This document shows, piece after piece, positions 22,617 through 30,479 of a stretch of DNA of 64,000 nt. Location of the stretch: assembly GCF_018860365.1 (NCBI RefSeq), contig NZ_JAHKPO010000003.1, positions 434,001-498,000 of the forward strand, in the 5' to 3' direction. Within the stretch, counting starts at the first letter, position 1. Each line of letters begins with the position of its first letter. The notes beneath the pieces were generated by a model. It saw nothing but the letters and a program-made list of their open reading frames with translations. It made no database searches and had not been told where the DNA came from. A program made the position numbers and the translations under genes. Origin of the DNA: Arenibacter algicola. Lineage in GTDB: Bacteria; Bacteroidota; Bacteroidia; Flavobacteriales; Flavobacteriaceae.

Positions 22617-23159
22617 CTAATTTTTTAAGTGTTGAGTAATTTTAGAACTCATGGGGTTGGTGTTGGAAAAAAAATAATCCACCAAACTACCTCTTTCGTC
22701 CACGAGATATTTTTGAAAATTCCATTTTACAGAAGAATTTTTAAGGCCATTTACAGCTTTGTTTGTAAGCCAACTGTATAAAGGATGTTGGTTTTTTCCT
22801 TTAACATCGATTTTTTCGGTTATTAGGAATTTTACCCCATAATTTACTTCACAAAATGTCTCAATTTCGGCAGCGGTACCTGGTTCTTGGCCTCCAAATT
22901 GATTACAGGGCAATCCAATAACTACTAAATTGTTTTTATAAGAATCTTGTAGTTCCTGTAATTGCTTGTATTGGGGGGTAAAGCCACATTTTGAAGCCAC
23001 ATTTACAAATAGGATATGCATGCCCTCAAAGTCTTTCAAATAAATGGGGCTGCCACTTAAGCTATTTATTTTGATATCATATATAGATTGCAAATCCATC
23101 TTTTCCTTGGGTTTGGAACTAGTGAATAAGGTTGCGGCAAATGTTTTGAGAGGATTCAT
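22617..23159 (-). CDS. Glutathione peroxidase-family thiol peroxidase
   Basis: 180 residues. Peroxidatic Cys58 sits in NVASKCGFTPQY; the catalytic Gln is in LPCNQFGGQEPG (85-94) and Trp146 in WNF. Bacterial Cys-type GPx enzymes usually run on thioredoxin and reduce hydrogen peroxide and lipid peroxides. A hydrophobic N-terminus (MNPLKTFAATLF) is short for a signal peptide; M21 (MDLQSIYDI) is a possible alternative start giving the standard length. It lies 3 bp after the SDR gene and 2 bp before the Lacal_2735 gene. Confidence 0.92.
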   Translation of the reverse strand: MNPLKTFAATLFTSSKPKEKMDLQSIYDIKINSLSGSPIYLKDFEGMHILFVNVASKCGFTPQYKQLQELQDSYKNNLVVIGLPCNQFGGQEPGTAAEIETFCEVNYGVKFLITEKIDVKGKNQHPLYSWLTNKAVNGLKNSSVKWNFQKYLVDERGSLVDYFFSNTNPMSSKITQHLKN

Positions 23160-23162
23160 ACA

Positions 23163-23846
23163 TTATATTTTAAAAGTTACAATTCCATAGTCCATTTCAA
23201 ATATTTGACCTGAGATCGAAGATGCTTTTTCAGACAATAGAAATTCGGCCATTTCCGCTACTTCCTTGGGGTTTAGGAAATTCTTTAAGGGATGACGCTC
23301 TTTAATATTTTCGATCATCTTATCATTGCGCAGAAGTTTCGAAGCCAATTGGGTATCCGTAACAGTTGGTGCAATGGCATTAATACGTATGTTGGGTGCC
23401 AATTCCGCACCAAGGGATTTTACCAAACCTTCCACGCCGGATTTGGCTGCAGCAATACTGGCATGGTAGGGCATTCCTAATTTGGAGGCCACAGTGCTAA
23501 AAAGTAAAATAGAGGGGCGATCAGCCTTTTTGAGCACATCCAAATACTTTTGCATGGCCTTTACGGCCCCAATAACGTTGATTTCATAATCTTCCCTAAA
23601 GTCCTCTAAACTTAAACGTGCAAAAGGTTTTAAATTAATACTTCCGGGACAGTATACTAAGGCATCCATGGCCGTAATTTCCGGTAAATCGTCACTAAGA
23701 ATATCAACATTATAATGTGTTAGGTTGGCGTGGGTATATTCGGGCGCCGACCTACTAAGGTTGATTACTTTTTGGGAATCCACCATATTACCTACAATAG
23801 CCTTACCTATTCCTTTACTGCCTCCTACAATGACTATTGTCTTCAT
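23163..23846 (-). CDS. Short-chain dehydrogenase/reductase lacking the catalytic Tyr
   Basis: 227 residues, Rossmann fold. The cofactor loop is VGGSKGIGKA (6-15), then YNVDIL and ALVYCPGSINL in place of NNAG. The usual catalytic block Y-x3-K appears as PYHASIAAAKSGVEGL: Lys is kept but the Tyr position holds Ile. IRINAIAPTVTDTQLASKLL and a normal C-terminus follow. The enzyme may bind NAD(P) without standard SDR catalysis, or use the displaced Tyr. It sits in the folE/GPx operon beside a CarH-like regulator. Confidence 0.85.
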   Translation of the reverse strand: MKTIVIVGGSKGIGKAIVGNMVDSQKVINLSRSAPEYTHANLTHYNVDILSDDLPEITAMDALVYCPGSINLKPFARLSLEDFREDYEINVIGAVKAMQKYLDVLKKADRPSILLFSTVASKLGMPYHASIAAAKSGVEGLVKSLGAELAPNIRINAIAPTVTDTQLASKLLRNDKMIENIKERHPLKNFLNPKEVAEMAEFLLSEKASSISGQIFEMDYGIVTFKI

Positions 23847-24095: not shown

Positions 24096-24794
24096 TTAGT
24101 GTTTAATGTAGTTTTGTAATTCTGCTATTTTTGATGGAGTATTAAATTTTCCTCCGTAATAGGAGGTTACGGTTGCGGATGTTTCATCTTTAATGCCCCT
24201 TGAAGACACACACAGGTGTTTGGCATCTATAATTACCGCAACGTCGTCAGTGCCCAAAATATCTTTCAAATCTTCTGCGATTTGATTGGTAAGGCGTTCC
24301 TGTACCTGTGGCCTTTTTGCGTAGTACTGTACAATTCTATTCAACTTGGACAAACCTATTACTTTTCCCGAGGAGATATAAGCTACATGGGCTTTCCCTA
24401 TTATCGGTACAAAATGATGTTCGCAGTTGGAATAGAAGGAAATATTCTTTTCCACCAACATTTGATTGTACTGATATTTATTGTCGAATAATGCTATTTT
24501 TGGCTTGTTTGCCGGATTTAATCCAGAGAAAATCTCATCGATGTACATCTTGGCAACTCGCTCTGGAGTACCTTTCAGGGAATCGTCTGTAAGATCCAAT
24601 CCCATTACGTCCATAATTTCCTCAAATAATAGGGCAATACGCTGCTTTTTCTCGGAGTCCGACAGTTTAAAGGCATCCGGTTTCATTGGGGTTTCCAAAC
24701 CTGTATATAGATGGTCGTCACCAATTTCCCCATGGCTAAATCCATTTAATTTATGGCCATTCTTATTATTAGTAGTTAAGGTTTCTATGTTCAT
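24096..24794 (-). CDS. folE: GTP cyclohydrolase I
   Basis: 232 residues. Zinc ligands are visible as Cys124 and His127 (NCEHHFVP) and Cys195 (HLCVSSRG). The family blocks GTPERVAKMYIDEIFSGL, GKVIGLSKLNRIVQYYAKRPQVQERLTNQI and SSRGIKDETSATVTSYYGG are complete. The enzyme converts GTP to 7,8-dihydroneopterin triphosphate, the first step of tetrahydrofolate and pterin synthesis. Its place beside TIGR03643, an SDR and a CarH-like regulator suggests an extra pterin supply, for instance for photolyase antenna or pterin-dependent hydroxylases; that link is inference. It may be a paralogue of a housekeeping copy elsewhere. Confidence 0.96.
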   Translation of the reverse strand: MNIETLTTNNKNGHKLNGFSHGEIGDDHLYTGLETPMKPDAFKLSDSEKKQRIALLFEEIMDVMGLDLTDDSLKGTPERVAKMYIDEIFSGLNPANKPKIALFDNKYQYNQMLVEKNISFYSNCEHHFVPIIGKAHVAYISSGKVIGLSKLNRIVQYYAKRPQVQERLTNQIAEDLKDILGTDDVAVIIDAKHLCVSSRGIKDETSATVTSYYGGKFNTPSKIAELQNYIKH

Positions 24795-24848: not shown

Positions 24849-25121
24849 TTATCGTTTTGAAATTGAGTTATTTGAAATCTGTTTTTGTCGAGAACATTTA
24901 AAGCGCCCTTGTTCAAAAGTCCTTAATTTTTGGTGTTTGGTGGCACGTCCTTGTACACGTTGGCGCCACATTTTAAAACTACTTGGTCTCATTTCCCGGC
25001 GCATAAGCTTAATGACTTCTTGTTCGGGCATAGAGAACTGATAGGTAATGGCTTCAAATGGGGTTCTGTCTTCCCATGCCATTTCAATAATACGGTCAAT
25101 ATCTTTTTCGCCTAAATTCAT
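24849..25121 (-). CDS. TIGR03643-family protein
   Basis: 90 residues beginning MNLGEKDIDRIIEMAWEDRTPFEAITYQFSMPEQEVIKLMRREMRPSSFKMWRQRVQGRATKH, an almost textbook match to the TIGR03643 (DUF2805) family as I recall it. The E-x-x-V-I-x-L-M-R-x-x-M segment resembles a small helix-turn-helix. The family is typically encoded near cryptochrome/photolyase and DUF2256 genes. Its start overlaps the preceding gene by 4 bp (25118-25121). The C-terminal extension after about residue 70 is variable. Confidence 0.88.
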   Translation of the reverse strand: MNLGEKDIDRIIEMAWEDRTPFEAITYQFSMPEQEVIKLMRREMRPSSFKMWRQRVQGRATKHQKLRTFEQGRFKCSRQKQISNNSISKR

Positions 25122-25549
25122 TTAAAATTTAAAAAATCATATTTAGATTCATATCTCGCTTTTAGTTTTATCAACTTATGTAGAAAAGGTTTACTATTAT
25201 CAAAGCTTTCATCCTTTCTGAACCTGATAAATCGTCCTTGGGCATATAGACTGCTATAGTCACCTTTATATATTACCAATTGATAATATGGAATTACCCA
25301 AGTGAAATTGGTAAATCCTTTAATTATTCCCACTAGTATTCCCAGGGGGCGCAATTCTATATTGGCATAAGTAGCATCAAAAATACTGTTGAGATAATCT
25401 TTCATATTTTCACTGGATTCCTCTATGACCATTTTTTTAGAAACCGTACCTTTCATTTTAATGGTTTTTATAAAGCTGAAAGGTTTCCCAACCAGATCGT
25501 TTATAAGTAGGGAAGTATCGTTATTTCTATGTGTGGTATCTATAATCAT
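25118..25549 (-). CDS. Conserved hypothetical protein heading the folE operon
   Basis: 143 residues without signal peptide. It is beta-rich in the middle (GKPFSFIKTIKMKGTVSKKMVIEES, ANIELRPLGILVGIIKGFTNFTWVIPYYQLVIYKGDYSSLYAQGRFIRF). No family was recognised. It is translationally coupled to the TIGR03643 gene by a 4-bp overlap and stands first behind a strong candidate promoter with the 30-bp inverted repeat at 25582. It is therefore probably co-induced with folE and the oxidative-stress genes. Confidence 0.75.
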   Translation of the reverse strand: MIIDTTHRNNDTSLLINDLVGKPFSFIKTIKMKGTVSKKMVIEESSENMKDYLNSIFDATYANIELRPLGILVGIIKGFTNFTWVIPYYQLVIYKGDYSSLYAQGRFIRFRKDESFDNSKPFLHKLIKLKARYESKYDFLNFK

Positions 25550-25568: not shown

Positions 25569-25611
25569 CAAAGTTACATAATGTTTAAGAGTTTTTAAAA
25601 TAAGTTAAACA
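25569..25611 (-). promoter_or_regulatory. Promoter with TGTTTAA-N16-TTAAACA operator, folE operon
   Basis: In minus reading, TGTTTAA and TTAAACA (plus coordinates 25605-25611 and 25582-25588) form a perfect 7-bp inverted repeat with a 16-bp spacer, followed after 5 bp by TAACTTTG (25569-25576), an exact TAnnTTTG -7 box. The start codon at 25549 lies 20 bp further. The same arrangement, with the same distances, stands before the TetR gene. The bound factor is unknown; the CarH-like protein at 29394 is the first candidate. Confidence 0.65.
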
Positions 25612-25662
25612 GTTTTGGATTCTATTTTCCTATGATGGTATAGGCTATGGTTATAGAAAATA

Positions 25663-27087
25663 CTATTTGGAAACCAGTTTATTGATCAAGCCATTGAAAA
25701 TAATGCCATGGAAGGGATACACGCTGTACCAATATAAACGGCCAACGAGTCCCCTGGGCCTGAAGGTTGCTGTTTGTTTTAGAAGTCCTTTTTCAATTTT
25801 AAATTCGAGCCATGCCTCTCCCGGAAGTTTCATCTCGGCATATAACAAAAGTTTTTTTTCTTTTTTGTCACTGAAAATAACGCGCCAAAAGTCCAAGGCA
25901 TCACCGGCATCCAATTCGGAAACATGGGTTCTTCCCCTACGTAGTCCAATACCCCCTGCCAATTTATCTAGATATCCTCTTATTTTCCAGAGTGAATTTC
26001 CGTAGTACCATCCGGTTGTACCACCAATAGACCAGATTTTGTTGATAGTAGCTTGCTCATTGTTGACTTTACGTTCTTTATAATCTTTGAAGCATCCGTA
26101 TGTGGGAACATTGATGTATTTGTGCAGGTTATTCTTTAAGCGGCCGCTGCTAATCATGGAATCCTTCCAACTGGATACAATGCTGTTTTGCTCAATTTTT
26201 TCAAAAGCCAATTGCACGGCCTCTTTATAAGTTATAGGGTCTACATCCAGGAGTTGATTGATATTGCTGGGTTTCCCAACAATCTGGACGCCCATGCTAT
26301 CCACTAATGTTGTTGCCAACTTGTAGGAGGTCGAGGTTACAAAATACAGCCAATACGAAGAAAGTTTTGGTGTCATGACCGGTACAGTTAGAATATAACG
26401 CTTTAACCCCCTTATTTTCGCAAACTCCAAGAGCATTTGTTTATAGGTCAATATCTCCGGCCCAAAAATGTCAAATGAGGTGTTATAAAGCTCTTTCCTT
26501 CCCTTTGCCCGTGATAAAAAGGCCAATACATCCCTTACCGCCAAGGGCTGTGTTTTGGTGTTAAGCCATTTTGGCGCTACCATTACGGGGAGTTTTTCTA
26601 CCAGATCTCTAATAATCTCAAAGGAAGAACTTCCCGATCCAACAATGATACCTGCCTTAAAAACGGTAAGTCCATAGGAATCCGAGGCTAAAATTTCTTC
26701 CACATTTTTTCTGGACTGTAAATGTTTGGAAAGTTGCTCTTCGTTTGTAATGCCACTTAAATAGATAACCTGCTTTAGGTTGGTAGTGGAAAAATAGGCT
26801 TTGAAATTGGCTGCACAAGCTGCTTCCAAGCGCTCAAAATTGTTGGAAGAGTTAGACATGGAGTGTATTAGATAATACGCCACATCTATATCTTTAGGAA
26901 TGTATTTTAGGGTTTCTGGTTTTAAGAAATCGGCCTCTACAATACTAATATTTTCATCATCAAGGTAGTTTTTATCAGCTCTTAATGTGTCACGTACAGC
27001 ACAGACCACATGATGCCCTTCGTTGGTTAAAATAGGGATCAATCGTTTGCCGATATACCCTGTGGCGCCTGTTACGAGAATTTTCAT
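25663..27087 (-). CDS. NAD(P)H-binding atypical SDR with DUF2867 C-terminal domain
   Basis: 474 residues. The N-terminal extended-SDR-like domain (1-290) has the glycine motif VTGATGYIGKRLIP, then DVAYYLIHSMS and an FKAGIIVGSGSSSFEIIRDL region. The C-terminal part from about residue 310 matches DUF2867 (WSIGGTTGWYYGNSLWKIRGYLDKLAGGIGLRRGRTH, DALDFWRV). The fusion is common in flavobacteria and in light or oxidative clusters, but its reaction is unknown. It lies 43 bp after the ABC1 kinase gene in the same direction. Confidence 0.88.
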   Translation of the reverse strand: MKILVTGATGYIGKRLIPILTNEGHHVVCAVRDTLRADKNYLDDENISIVEADFLKPETLKYIPKDIDVAYYLIHSMSNSSNNFERLEAACAANFKAYFSTTNLKQVIYLSGITNEEQLSKHLQSRKNVEEILASDSYGLTVFKAGIIVGSGSSSFEIIRDLVEKLPVMVAPKWLNTKTQPLAVRDVLAFLSRAKGRKELYNTSFDIFGPEILTYKQMLLEFAKIRGLKRYILTVPVMTPKLSSYWLYFVTSTSYKLATTLVDSMGVQIVGKPSNINQLLDVDPITYKEAVQLAFEKIEQNSIVSSWKDSMISSGRLKNNLHKYINVPTYGCFKDYKERKVNNEQATINKIWSIGGTTGWYYGNSLWKIRGYLDKLAGGIGLRRGRTHVSELDAGDALDFWRVIFSDKKEKKLLLYAEMKLPGEAWLEFKIEKGLLKQTATFRPRGLVGRLYWYSVYPFHGIIFNGLINKLVSK

Positions 27088-27130
27088 TTGTTATATAGTT
27101 AAGGATAAGTTGTTCAACTTCACTGTAACA

Positions 27131-28441
27131 TTAAAATCCATTGAAGTTATTGATCTTAATGTTGTCGGCTTTTAAATCGAACATAAGATTATATAGGCCA
27201 AAAAAGGTCCTATTGATATAGATAAAATGTTTGGAACCTCTATTGCCGTTCATTTTGCGCAGTTCCGTACTCTTGGAGTAGCGCTGCCCCAGTTCCGTGA
27301 TTTTTCCGAAAAATTCACCATCCGAAAAGTCGAAGGTTTCCACCTGAAACGGCTGGGTGAAAAGGCTTAGCAATTCATGGAACATTTTCGTGAAGAATTC
27401 TGTTTCCTCTTTTGAATCGTCTTCACGTAAAATTTCCAGTTCGTATAATTTGGAGACAAAGAATTTCTGGTCCGTAATATTTTCTGGTTTGGCCAGTTCA
27501 AAATATGGAACATAGAATTCATTGGGAATTATTTTCATGCAGCCAAAATCCAGGGCAATCAATTTACCTTCCTTGGACACCAAGAAATTTCCGGGATGTG
27601 GGTCTGCATGTACCTTTCTCAGCTTATGCATTTGAAACATATAAAAATCCCATAATGCCTGCCCTAGCTCATTGGCTTTTTCTTGATCGGTATTGTAGGC
27701 CGTAAACTCCGAAAGGTGTTCGCCTTGCATATAGTCCATGGTAATAATTCGATCGGAGGACAATTCTTCGTAATATTGAGGAAACAAAAGGTTGGGAATG
27801 CATGAGCAGGCTTTGGCAATTTCCTTGCTCTGTTCCATTTCCAACACATAATTTGTTTCCTCTTTTAACTTTCCTTCAACTTCCTTAAAGTACTTGTCCG
27901 AATCTTTGCCTTTTATGTTAAACATTTTAATTGCAATGGGTTTAACAAGGGCAAGGTCGGAGGCTATACTCTCGGCAACTCCAGGATATTGGATTTTCAC
28001 AGCAAGTTTTTTCCCATATTTTGCTGCCTCATGGACCTGTCCAATACTGGCAGCGTTGACTGAAGTAGTGTTGAAGGAATCAAATAGTTCATTAGGCAGT
28101 TTGCCAAAATAATTTTTAAAGGTTTTAATGACCAATGGAGGCGATAATGGGGGAACGGAAAATTGGGCCAAAGAAAATTTTTCCACATATGCTTGGGGCA
28201 TTATGCTTTTTTCCATACTCAACATTTGAGCTACTTTTAGAGCACTTCCTTTAAGCTGTTTAAGACTGTCATATATGTCCTCGGCATTGTTCTCGTTGAG
28301 CCGTGATCTTGCCTCAAGCTCAGTTTTTGTAAGTTTATCTCCATAGTACTTGAGATAGTTAACGCCAACTCTGGCGCCCGTGGATACTAATTTTGAGGCA
28401 CGATGTATTTTTGAAACCGGTATATTGTCTATTGTTTTCAT
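27131..28441 (-). CDS. ABC1/UbiB-family atypical kinase
   Basis: 436 residues. ABC1 motifs are visible: KGSALKVAQMLSME (the KxGQ-like segment, here K-V-A-Q), SIGQVHEAAKYGKKLAVKIQYPGVAESI with the ATP-binding Lys, and HADPHPGNFLVSKEGKLIALDFGCM (catalytic loop and DFG). UbiB/ADCK proteins support quinone or lipid metabolism as ATPases with weak protein-kinase activity. There is no C-terminal membrane helix. It lies 9 bp after the TetR gene, in the light/stress operon. Confidence 0.93.
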   Translation of the reverse strand: MKTIDNIPVSKIHRASKLVSTGARVGVNYLKYYGDKLTKTELEARSRLNENNAEDIYDSLKQLKGSALKVAQMLSMEKSIMPQAYVEKFSLAQFSVPPLSPPLVIKTFKNYFGKLPNELFDSFNTTSVNAASIGQVHEAAKYGKKLAVKIQYPGVAESIASDLALVKPIAIKMFNIKGKDSDKYFKEVEGKLKEETNYVLEMEQSKEIAKACSCIPNLLFPQYYEELSSDRIITMDYMQGEHLSEFTAYNTDQEKANELGQALWDFYMFQMHKLRKVHADPHPGNFLVSKEGKLIALDFGCMKIIPNEFYVPYFELAKPENITDQKFFVSKLYELEILREDDSKEETEFFTKMFHELLSLFTQPFQVETFDFSDGEFFGKITELGQRYSKSTELRKMNGNRGSKHFIYINRTFFGLYNLMFDLKADNIKINNFNGF

Positions 28442-28450
28442 CCAATGTTT

Positions 28451-29107
28451 TTAATTCATGTTCATTTTTTCCTTGAAAATGAATTTTCCAAAGTCGAGCA
28501 CACTTTTAAGAGGCGCAATGCTTAAAACATCAAAACTAGTGTTTACCGCTTTCTCTATAAATATGTCGGTCTTTTCAAAGGCCGCCGATGTGTCCTCCAT
28601 CCAGAATTTCATGGTCAATAACAATTGTAACCAAGCCGATTCTTGTAACGCGCGCCTTTGAATTTTATCTATTTGCTCATGTTTTATGTCCAGGGTTTCT
28701 ATGTCTAAATCCTCAATGTAGGAGGTAAAGGACTTTTTAAGTTCTGAAAGGACTGTTAGTCCTTTGAGGCCGTTTTTGTAGCGATGCAGTGAGTATATTA
28801 CATAACTCCTATTGGCCGTTAAATTTTCAAAAAAGGTGAAGTAAAAACTTAACAGTTTATTGCGCGCATCAAAGGATTTATAATCTTCGCTTTTATCCAA
28901 AACGGAAAGGGTGTTCTTAAAAAAAGCTTCGAAAATATGTTTTTCTAGGGCTTCAAACGAACCAAAAAAATCATAGAATTTAGACTCTTCAAAATTGTTG
29001 CCTTTTGCAAAAGCGTAAACCGATTTGGGATTTTCATTATGTTCAAGGACATAATCCATATAAGATGAAATGATGTCGTTTTCTGTAATTGATTTCTTTT
29101 TTGCCAT
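28451..29107 (-). CDS. TetR-family regulator-like protein
   Basis: 218 residues. The N-terminus MAKKKSITENDIISSYMDYVLEHNENPKSVYAFAKGNNFEESKFYDFFGSFEALEKHIFEAFF has the TetR DNA-binding layout, with the recognition segment ESKFYDFFGSFEAL in the normal place. A helical ligand domain follows, typical of the 'TetR C-terminal' group found beside ABC1 kinases. It is first in the operon, directly behind the promoter with the 30-bp inverted repeat. It could act as an autoregulator or as an accessory protein to the kinase. Confidence 0.8.
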   Translation of the reverse strand: MAKKKSITENDIISSYMDYVLEHNENPKSVYAFAKGNNFEESKFYDFFGSFEALEKHIFEAFFKNTLSVLDKSEDYKSFDARNKLLSFYFTFFENLTANRSYVIYSLHRYKNGLKGLTVLSELKKSFTSYIEDLDIETLDIKHEQIDKIQRRALQESAWLQLLLTMKFWMEDTSAAFEKTDIFIEKAVNTSFDVLSIAPLKSVLDFGKFIFKEKMNMN

Positions 29108-29125
29108 GACTTTAAATTGTATGGT

Positions 29126-29168
29126 ACAAGATACAAAATGTTTAACGTTTTAGTTTATATATTAAACA
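29126..29168 (-). promoter_or_regulatory. Promoter with TGTTTAA-N16-TTAAACA operator, TetR-ABC1 operon
   Basis: The half-sites at 29139-29145 and 29162-29168 form a perfect 7-bp inverted repeat with a 16-bp spacer; after 5 bp comes TATCTTGT (29126-29133), a near match to the -7 box, and the TetR start at 29107. Geometry is identical to the element at 25569-25611. The remaining gap to 29393 holds no gene. Confidence 0.6.
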
Positions 29169-29393: not shown

Positions 29394-30293
29394 TCAAAGA
29401 TTTTGGACCAATTGATCTATCTGGGAAAAGGCAACAACATTTTTGGGCAAATTTTTTTGATTTATTTCCTGGAGCATTTTTCCCGATATCCAAAGCTCGG
29501 AAGTAGTATTTTTCAGCAGCAAGTCATGAAAATCCTTTAGATATGGCATAATGTTTTCCTTGTCCGGTTGTACTGTGAAATAGGAAACGAATACAATATT
29601 ATCATACAATCGTATTAAATCCTTCAAGCTAAATATAGGGATGCTTTGTCCAAGAAAAATGGCTTGATAGCCTTTGGACAGGATTTCATAATTAATGAAC
29701 ATTAAGCCCAACTCGTGAATTTCGTTATCCGGAAGATACAGTACAAATGTTTTGGAGTTATTGGTGGGTGTGCTGAATTGCAACTTTTCGGTATTTACCA
29801 AGATCTTTTGTTTGATCAAGGCGCAAATAAAATGTTCATGGGAGGGCTTTATGGTGTCAGTTTGCCAAAGCAGTCCTACTTCGTTTAAAAAAGGAATAAA
29901 GTCTTCATAGAAGATTTCCCTAAACGACTTTTCCTTTAAAAGGGCATTATACGTTTTAAAAAATAGTGCCTGATCAAAATTCATCATGGACATTTTAAAG
30001 GAATTTAAAACATGTCCGTTATCGCTTTGTTCTGAAACCAAATTTCTAACAACGCTCGGAATTTTATCTTCCCCTAGCTGCGAGATCTTGGAAATCTTAT
30101 AACCGTTATTGTACAGAAAAGTAACATTAAGAAGTTTTTGTAGGTTCTCAATATCATAACATCTTATGTTGGTGTCCGTTCTGTTAGGCTGAAAAAGATT
30201 GTAGCGCTTTTCCCATATTCTAATGGTATGGGCCTTTATACCAGAAAGATTCTCAAGGTCTTTAATGCTAAAGGTACTCTTAACGTTGTTCAT
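29394..30293 (-). CDS. CarH/LitR-type MerR-family light-sensing regulator (B12-dependent)
   Basis: 299 residues in three parts. A MerR helix-turn-helix (7-75: FSIKDLENLSGIKAHTIRIWEKRYNLF) is followed by a B12-binding helical bundle with the W-x9-E-H signature (Trp143, Glu153, His154) and a Rossmann-like B12 domain with E-x-H-x-x-G (Glu191, His193, Gly196), His193 being the expected lower cobalt ligand. All residues needed for adenosylcobalamin-based photoreception in CarH are visible. In the dark CarH represses; light releases DNA. It lies 286 bp downstream of the TetR operon promoter region on the same strand. Confidence 0.92.
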   Translation of the reverse strand: MNNVKSTFSIKDLENLSGIKAHTIRIWEKRYNLFQPNRTDTNIRCYDIENLQKLLNVTFLYNNGYKISKISQLGEDKIPSVVRNLVSEQSDNGHVLNSFKMSMMNFDQALFFKTYNALLKEKSFREIFYEDFIPFLNEVGLLWQTDTIKPSHEHFICALIKQKILVNTEKLQFSTPTNNSKTFVLYLPDNEIHELGLMFINYEILSKGYQAIFLGQSIPIFSLKDLIRLYDNIVFVSYFTVQPDKENIMPYLKDFHDLLLKNTTSELWISGKMLQEINQKNLPKNVVAFSQIDQLVQNL

Positions 30294-30479
30294 TAATTTT
30301 TAAAAAAGGTTAAACAAAAATATCATTTTTATAGTTTATTTCAAAGTTTCTACAGACGTTTAATTTACGGGGTGCGGGCTTGTGATTTAATCATGAGGGA
30401 GTTACTTTCCTAAGGAATATTTCCTAAAAACAGACTATTCCAATATTTGTCATAGCCATGGCAAATCGTATCTTTATGG

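Follow-up and report, generated by a model that had tools for sequence, protein, structure and literature searches.

Two identical inverted repeats stand before two neighbouring operons of the flavobacterium Arenibacter algicola, and we asked which protein reads them. The repeats, TGTTTAA-N16-TTAAACA, lie in a stretch of 64,000 nucleotides (the window; positions 434,001 to 498,000 of contig NZ_JAHKPO010000003.1), one before a folE operon (operator 1) and the other before an operon that starts with a TetR gene (operator 2), beside a gene for a CarH/LitR-type regulator of the MerR family. The original prediction took them for a shared operator, plausibly that of CarH. Comparison with relatives makes it very probable that the palindrome is the operator of this regulator, a candidate light-released repressor; the comparative evidence for a CarH operator is strong. 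From knowledge of the family we infer repression by the adenosylcobalamin (AdoCbl) form of CarH in the dark and release in the light.

A scan of the window found both repeats to be exact where they had been claimed (Table 1), and they are the only two exact copies in the 5.75 Mb genome, in which the reversed control gives none. A first-order Markov model predicts 0.003 exact matches in 64 kb and 0.26 in the whole genome. The same pair of arms was not found in the window at any other spacer from 0 to 60. Each palindrome is followed on the minus strand by a −7-like box at the same distance of 5 bp, as predicted, the first box being exact and the second imperfect. The start codons, expected about 20 bp past the box, are 19 bp (operator 1) and 18 bp (operator 2) from it. 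The gene set given for the folE operon was right in its folE, SDR and GPx members, but the first gene encodes a 143-amino-acid protein that matches no Pfam family, followed by DUF2805, folE, SDR and GPx genes.

The CarH of the window matches Pfam MerR_1 (1.2e-12) and B12-binding_2 (4.6e-8) and, distantly, the solved CarH structure 5c8d_A (E 7.2e-13). We searched 299 genomes of Flavobacteriaceae, our own included, and found 854 exact palindromes in 235 of them, against 36 sites in 35 genomes for the reversed control. A CarH protein search gave a match in 245 of the 299. A gap from 2.8e-67 to 4.5e-50 divides the best E-values into two groups, and a cut of 1e-60, chosen after the gap had been seen, was used to define close CarH orthologs; the co-occurrence tables of motif, CarH and TetR were compiled by hand. 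The motif tracks the close ortholog, being present in 217 of 220 genomes that have one and in 18 of the 79 others, and sites adjoin carH itself, in agreement with the proposal that CarH is the factor. The frequency is 8/22 where the only CarH is divergent and 10/57 where there is a trace match or none, with eight of these ten genomes less than 90% complete. The sequences Wx9EH and [DE]xHxxG are present in all 113 CarHs first checked, the window protein among them. In the wider order the motif occurs in 74 of 246 genomes; counted by eye, one family (f5) has it in 0 of 38 genomes and another (f7) in 28 of 39, with a control of 2. The positive genomes of f7 carry about one exact motif each.

Where the only CarH is of the divergent class the motif gives way to a second version, which further supports the assignment to CarH. 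The pattern TGTCTAA-N15-18-TTAGACA, searched in the same 299 genomes, occurs at 36 sites in 28 genomes, with 62 in 54 for the reversed control (by eye), so there is no family-wide excess. It is nonetheless concentrated in divergent-CarH genomes (12/22 versus 16/277 others; Fisher P 1.4e-8), where it takes the form TGTCTAA-N15-17-TTAGACA and numbers 18 sites against four for the control in the same 22 genomes. All but one of the 18 adjoin CarH_B/crtI/fasciclin, TetR or ABC1, folE, Porph_ging or epimerase genes or the SDR operon. Several carH_B promoters have mixed arms, TGT(T/A)TAA-N17-TTAGACA.

The two versions appear to go with two forms of the recognition-helix stretch. All 110 close CarHs have TIRIWEKRY in this stretch, and the 19 divergent CarHs in our tree that have RKWE instead lie on one side of a branch with modest support (87/61). 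A single exact TTAAACA site is present in each of four RKWE genomes (G028, G168, G245 and G255). Among the divergent lineages, G007/G241 and G025/G253 have RIWE and two to four exact TTAAACA sites per genome, with a site at the TetR genes of G025 and G241 and none at those of G253 and G007. Genome G135 has a close CarH and a divergent paralog, yet only TTAGACA sites. On balance we lean towards a code in which RIWE proteins would read TTAAACA (N16) and RKWE proteins TTAGACA (N16/17), with flavobacterial CarH reading a spaced inverted repeat and not tandem repeats. The pairing of I or K with A or G is a correlation, not proof, because it goes back to a single evolutionary change. In the CarHs of genomes G020, G040, G261 and G262 the sequence [DE]xHxxG was not found and Wx9EH is present; these proteins may be independent of B12.

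Several observations weigh against the assignment to CarH. Binding by CarH, expression and the response to light are predictions from sequence. The motif is present in 18 of the 79 genomes that lack a close CarH (ten with no or trace CarH, eight with the divergent type) and absent from three of the 220 that have one, and the Fisher P of 3e-43 for the association is overstated since related genomes are not independent. Both protein motifs were found in only 17 of a further 21 CarHs, [DE]xHxxG being the one not found in four. Seventeen of the 81 sites sampled for context lie outside the six recurrent gene types described below, two of them within long open reading frames. Passages of PMC9304148 describe the CarH proteins of M. 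xanthus, T. thermophilus and B. megaterium as reading tandem 11 bp direct repeats, and report that CarA_Mx, at first assigned to inverted repeats, has since been reassigned to direct repeats. Finally, at up to two mismatches our own genome gives 84 matches against 97 for the reversed control. Degenerate matches are thus not enriched, and the case therefore depends on exact sites and on relatives; no photoprotection gene was found at the six one-mismatch places outside the window in this genome. The lack of an excess at up to two mismatches, with the AT-richness of the DNA, is what could be said for chance or a general feature of AT-rich promoters as the source of the repeats. We find such an origin hardly credible, as it is contradicted by the excess of exact matches over the control in 299 genomes, by the small number expected in our own and by the conservation of positions and registers among relatives.

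A different binder is conceivable in the TetR protein encoded beside operator 2, which would repress its own and the neighbouring operon. Operator 2 is directly before its gene and a 30 bp inverted repeat suits TetR proteins; moreover, where a close CarH is lacking (79 genomes) the motif is commoner with TetR than without it (9/22 versus 9/57, P 0.03). Once a close CarH is present, however, TetR is irrelevant to the motif (173/175 with TetR, 44/45 without a TetR match). Upstream of TetR no palindrome of either the A or the G type (up to one mismatch) was found in five of five CarH-less genomes examined, and in seven divergent-CarH genomes the operator at this position is exact TTAGACA in four, has mixed arms in one and is missing from two. 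The site also persists without the protein: in Arenibacter catalasegens (L207) TetR and ABC1 are absent and the palindrome still precedes the epimerase gene, and in G168 it precedes ABC1 with no TetR between. On the co-occurrence and the sites lacking TetR we rejected this candidate, which we regard as quite improbable. It is also unlikely that CarH owns the site but answers to B12 status or some other cue, or that some orthologs bind no B12. The role of light is a prediction, ExHxxG was not found in four of 21 divergent or exceptional CarHs, and CarA_Mx functions without B12 according to part of PMC8156234; on the other side stand the retention of both motifs in every CarH first checked and the nature of the targets, pigment and photolyase genes.

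The spacing of a CarH operator can be judged from loci fetched by protein; a set of 82 sites was excluded as circular, having been fetched by the N16 pattern itself. Exact arm pairs have a spacer of 16 in 20 of 23 cases among 80 named loci and in 40 of 46 among 60 TetR/CarH loci, two sets that share some genomes. The N3 arm pairs of Arenibacter TetR sites represent an extra half-site within the operator: three such sites (L143 5464, L199 11119 and L203 11123) have an additional inner TTAAACA at spacer 3 from the left arm. Tandem 11 bp repeats were not evident, with TnnACA at offset −11 in one and at +11 in none of 162 oriented sites. The TAnnTTTG box takes one of two registers, 20 bp or approximately two helical turns apart. 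In one it starts 15 bp before the end of the palindrome (crtI 10/10, Porph_ging 6/7, fasciclin 8/18) and in the other 5 bp after that end (all 11 distinct sites of the folE type; TetR 3/15 exact).

We note that the genes downstream fit a shared operator; the original prediction had asked whether its copies collect before genes such as those for photolyase, crt and folE. They do so in relatives, where sites precede crtI, folE and, in some, photolyase-containing TetR operons, but in our own genome crtI and the only PF00875 photolyase gene have no site. In a sample of 81 distinct sites from 21 genomes, for which not every site was fetched (G034 7/10, G154 7/8, G130 2/3), 64 stand before a gene of one of six types that recur: fasciclin (18), TetR (15), the DUF of 143 amino acids of the folE operon (11), crtI (10), Porph_ging (7) and the NmrA 'epimerase' (3). 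The 17 others include SDR, polyketide-cyclase-like and TspO genes, a GHMP kinase gene beside a UbiA gene, three sites without a gene call nearby and one site before a fatty-acid-desaturase-family protein, which we presume, as a guess, to be crtW-like. In relatives carH lies beside crtI with the site between them. The crtI start codon falls 1–5 bp past the palindrome end at ten sites, which suggests that the crtI mRNA would have almost no leader; at an example (L110 4001–4030) the −7 box is inside the palindrome. Before a fasciclin gene that diverges from an mnmA-like gene (L129 4001–4072), two operators stand in tandem, 42 bp from start to start.

In some relatives the TetR operon includes three photolyase/cryptochrome genes, two of them PF00875 and one DPRP. 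In one such relative, L126, its order is TetR, ABC1, flavin reductase, epimerase, PF00875 photolyase, DPRP and a second photolyase, after which come a second palindrome and DUF, DUF2805, folE, two small genes, SDR, GPx and TspO. A photolyase gene cluster in marine Flavobacteriia is noted in part of PMC5932025, and the portion of PMC7064467 dealing with Chryseobacterium lacus records crtB, crtI, a cyclase gene and crtZ as raised in the light.

The carH promoter has a site of its own. At 76 of the 80 named carH loci the arm TGTTTAA starts 23 bp upstream of the start codon, without deviation, and is followed 16 bp later by ATGAACA, which is the start codon plus an Asn codon and retains the TnnACA core. 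This is probably an auto-operator. If so, carH genes of the RIWE class would have their start codon as half of the operator, and protein start and operator would constrain each other.

Retention of the motif before both operons in relatives had been put forward as a test of the idea, and it was found with at most one mismatch at all ten Arenibacter loci and at all 30 TetR loci. In ten Arenibacter species the operator 1 position is exact in eight and has one mismatch in two, the operator 2 position is exact in nine and has one mismatch in one, and the spacers differ while the arms are kept; 29 of the 30 TetR loci have the exact palindrome within 200 bp upstream. No TTAAACA-type site within one mismatch was found at crtI, the PF00875 photolyase gene or the second CarH gene of our genome. 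The crtI locus shares neighbours (S4 protein, methyltransferase, phosphoribosyltransferase, aroK) with the carH-crtI locus of G143 and has neither carH nor a site; carH therefore seems to have moved away from crtI in Arenibacter. As a result of this move and of the loss of the crtI site, only carH and the operons of TetR and folE would be left of the exact-site regulon here. The crtI-crtB-hydroxylase set (G000:C15:20127; L312 2810–4128) has 1.3 kb without a called gene at the carH position of relatives. The second CarH is divergent (32% identical; G000:C9:98552-99262, L310), with a TGTC/TTAGACA-like sequence between it and a fasciclin gene. It also adjoins a hydroxylase-like gene and the PF00875 photolyase gene.

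Table 1. Coordinates in the window of the palindromes, promoter boxes and genes.
Feature	Position	Strand	Remarks
Operator 1, TGTTTAA-N16-TTAAACA	25582..25611	.	Exact; before 143-aa DUF / DUF2805 / folE / SDR / GPx genes
−7 box TAACTTTG	25569..25576	-	Exact TAnnTTTG; 5 bp after operator 1
Operator 2, TGTTTAA-N16-TTAAACA	29139..29168	.	Exact; before TetR / ABC1 / NmrA-DUF2867
−7-like box TATCTTGT	29126..29133	-	Imperfect TAnnTTTG; 5 bp after operator 2
Probable carH auto-operator TGTTTAA-N16-ATGAACA	30287..30316	minus	2 mismatches; right arm includes carH start codon
carH-like gene, 299 aa	29394..30293	-	Pfam MerR DNA-binding domain, B12-binding_2; Wx9EH, ExHxxG
TetR_C_23 regulator, first gene of operator 2 operon	28451..29107	-	Pfam
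ABC1 atypical kinase	27131..28441	-	Pfam
NmrA/DUF2867 'epimerase'	25663..27087	-	Pfam
143-aa protein, first gene after operator 1	25118..25549	-	No Pfam match
DUF2805 protein	24849..25121	-	Pfam; named TIGR03643 in the original prediction
folE, GTP cyclohydrolase I	24096..24794	-	Pfam
Short-chain dehydrogenase (SDR)	23163..23846	-	Pfam
Glutathione peroxidase (GPx)	22617..23159	-	Pfam

The TTAAACA arms, each with a TnnACA core, form an inverted repeat of fixed spacing that overlaps the −7 region or lies immediately upstream of it. In our model an AdoCbl-bound CarH oligomer would, in darkness, grip both arms with two of its DNA-binding domains and deny RNA polymerase access to the promoter. On illumination the cobalt–carbon bond would break and CarH would be released, switching on genes for pigment, photolyase/cryptochrome, pterin, peroxide defence and the cell surface together with carH itself.

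For many Flavobacteriaceae, which are major bacteria of the sunlit ocean, the model names a regulator together with its operator and a candidate light regulon, and it makes their light response directly testable. B12 photoreceptors, which are used in optogenetics, would gain an operator of a second geometry. If the code is right, exchange of the CarH class rewrites the operators of a whole light regulon through a single base change in each arm, always at the same positions; the two operators and two CarH classes would then offer a natural test case for how a MerR-type photoreceptor can shift its DNA specificity while keeping its targets. The operator had been thought undescribed, and we found no description of TGTTTAA-N16-TTAAACA in the open-access literature, subscription papers being mostly outside the search.

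Among known systems, the CarH proteins of Thermus thermophilus and Bacillus megaterium share with ours the MerR and B12-binding regions, Wx9EH, ExHxxG, the TnnACA core and the link with carotenoid genes. Their operators, as given in passages of PMC9304148 and PMC8156234, consist of three or four tandem 11 bp direct repeats, in contrast to the single inverted repeat with 7 bp arms and a 16 bp spacer seen here. The half-site core TnnACA, which PMC9304148 in part records for CarH, is present in all three arm versions, TTAAACA, TTAGACA and ATGAACA. Myxococcus xanthus CarA/CarH likewise repress a carotenoid promoter through a TnnACA core, but with a direct-repeat operator of about 55 bp and the antirepressor CarS (parts of PMC8156234 and PMC9304148). 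MliR of Bizionia argentinensis is also a MerR-like regulator in a flavobacterium; we set it aside as another type of protein, without an effector domain and concerned with iron homeostasis according to part of PMC9478572.

A further comparison is with the class II LitR proteins of Pseudomonas (PplR1 and PmlR2), the following details of which are from passages of PMC9758184. Theirs too is a palindrome with TGT...ACA ends, TGTACA-N12-TGTACA, although it spans 24 bp against 30 bp here and has other arms, the proteins work with a LOV receptor, and crtI is a recurrent target in our case. The corresponding form TGTnnA-N12-TnnACA was not found in the three own or sister stretches scanned. The Pseudomonas regulon comprises photolyase, folE, cryB and SDR genes, much as the flavobacterial one appears to do.

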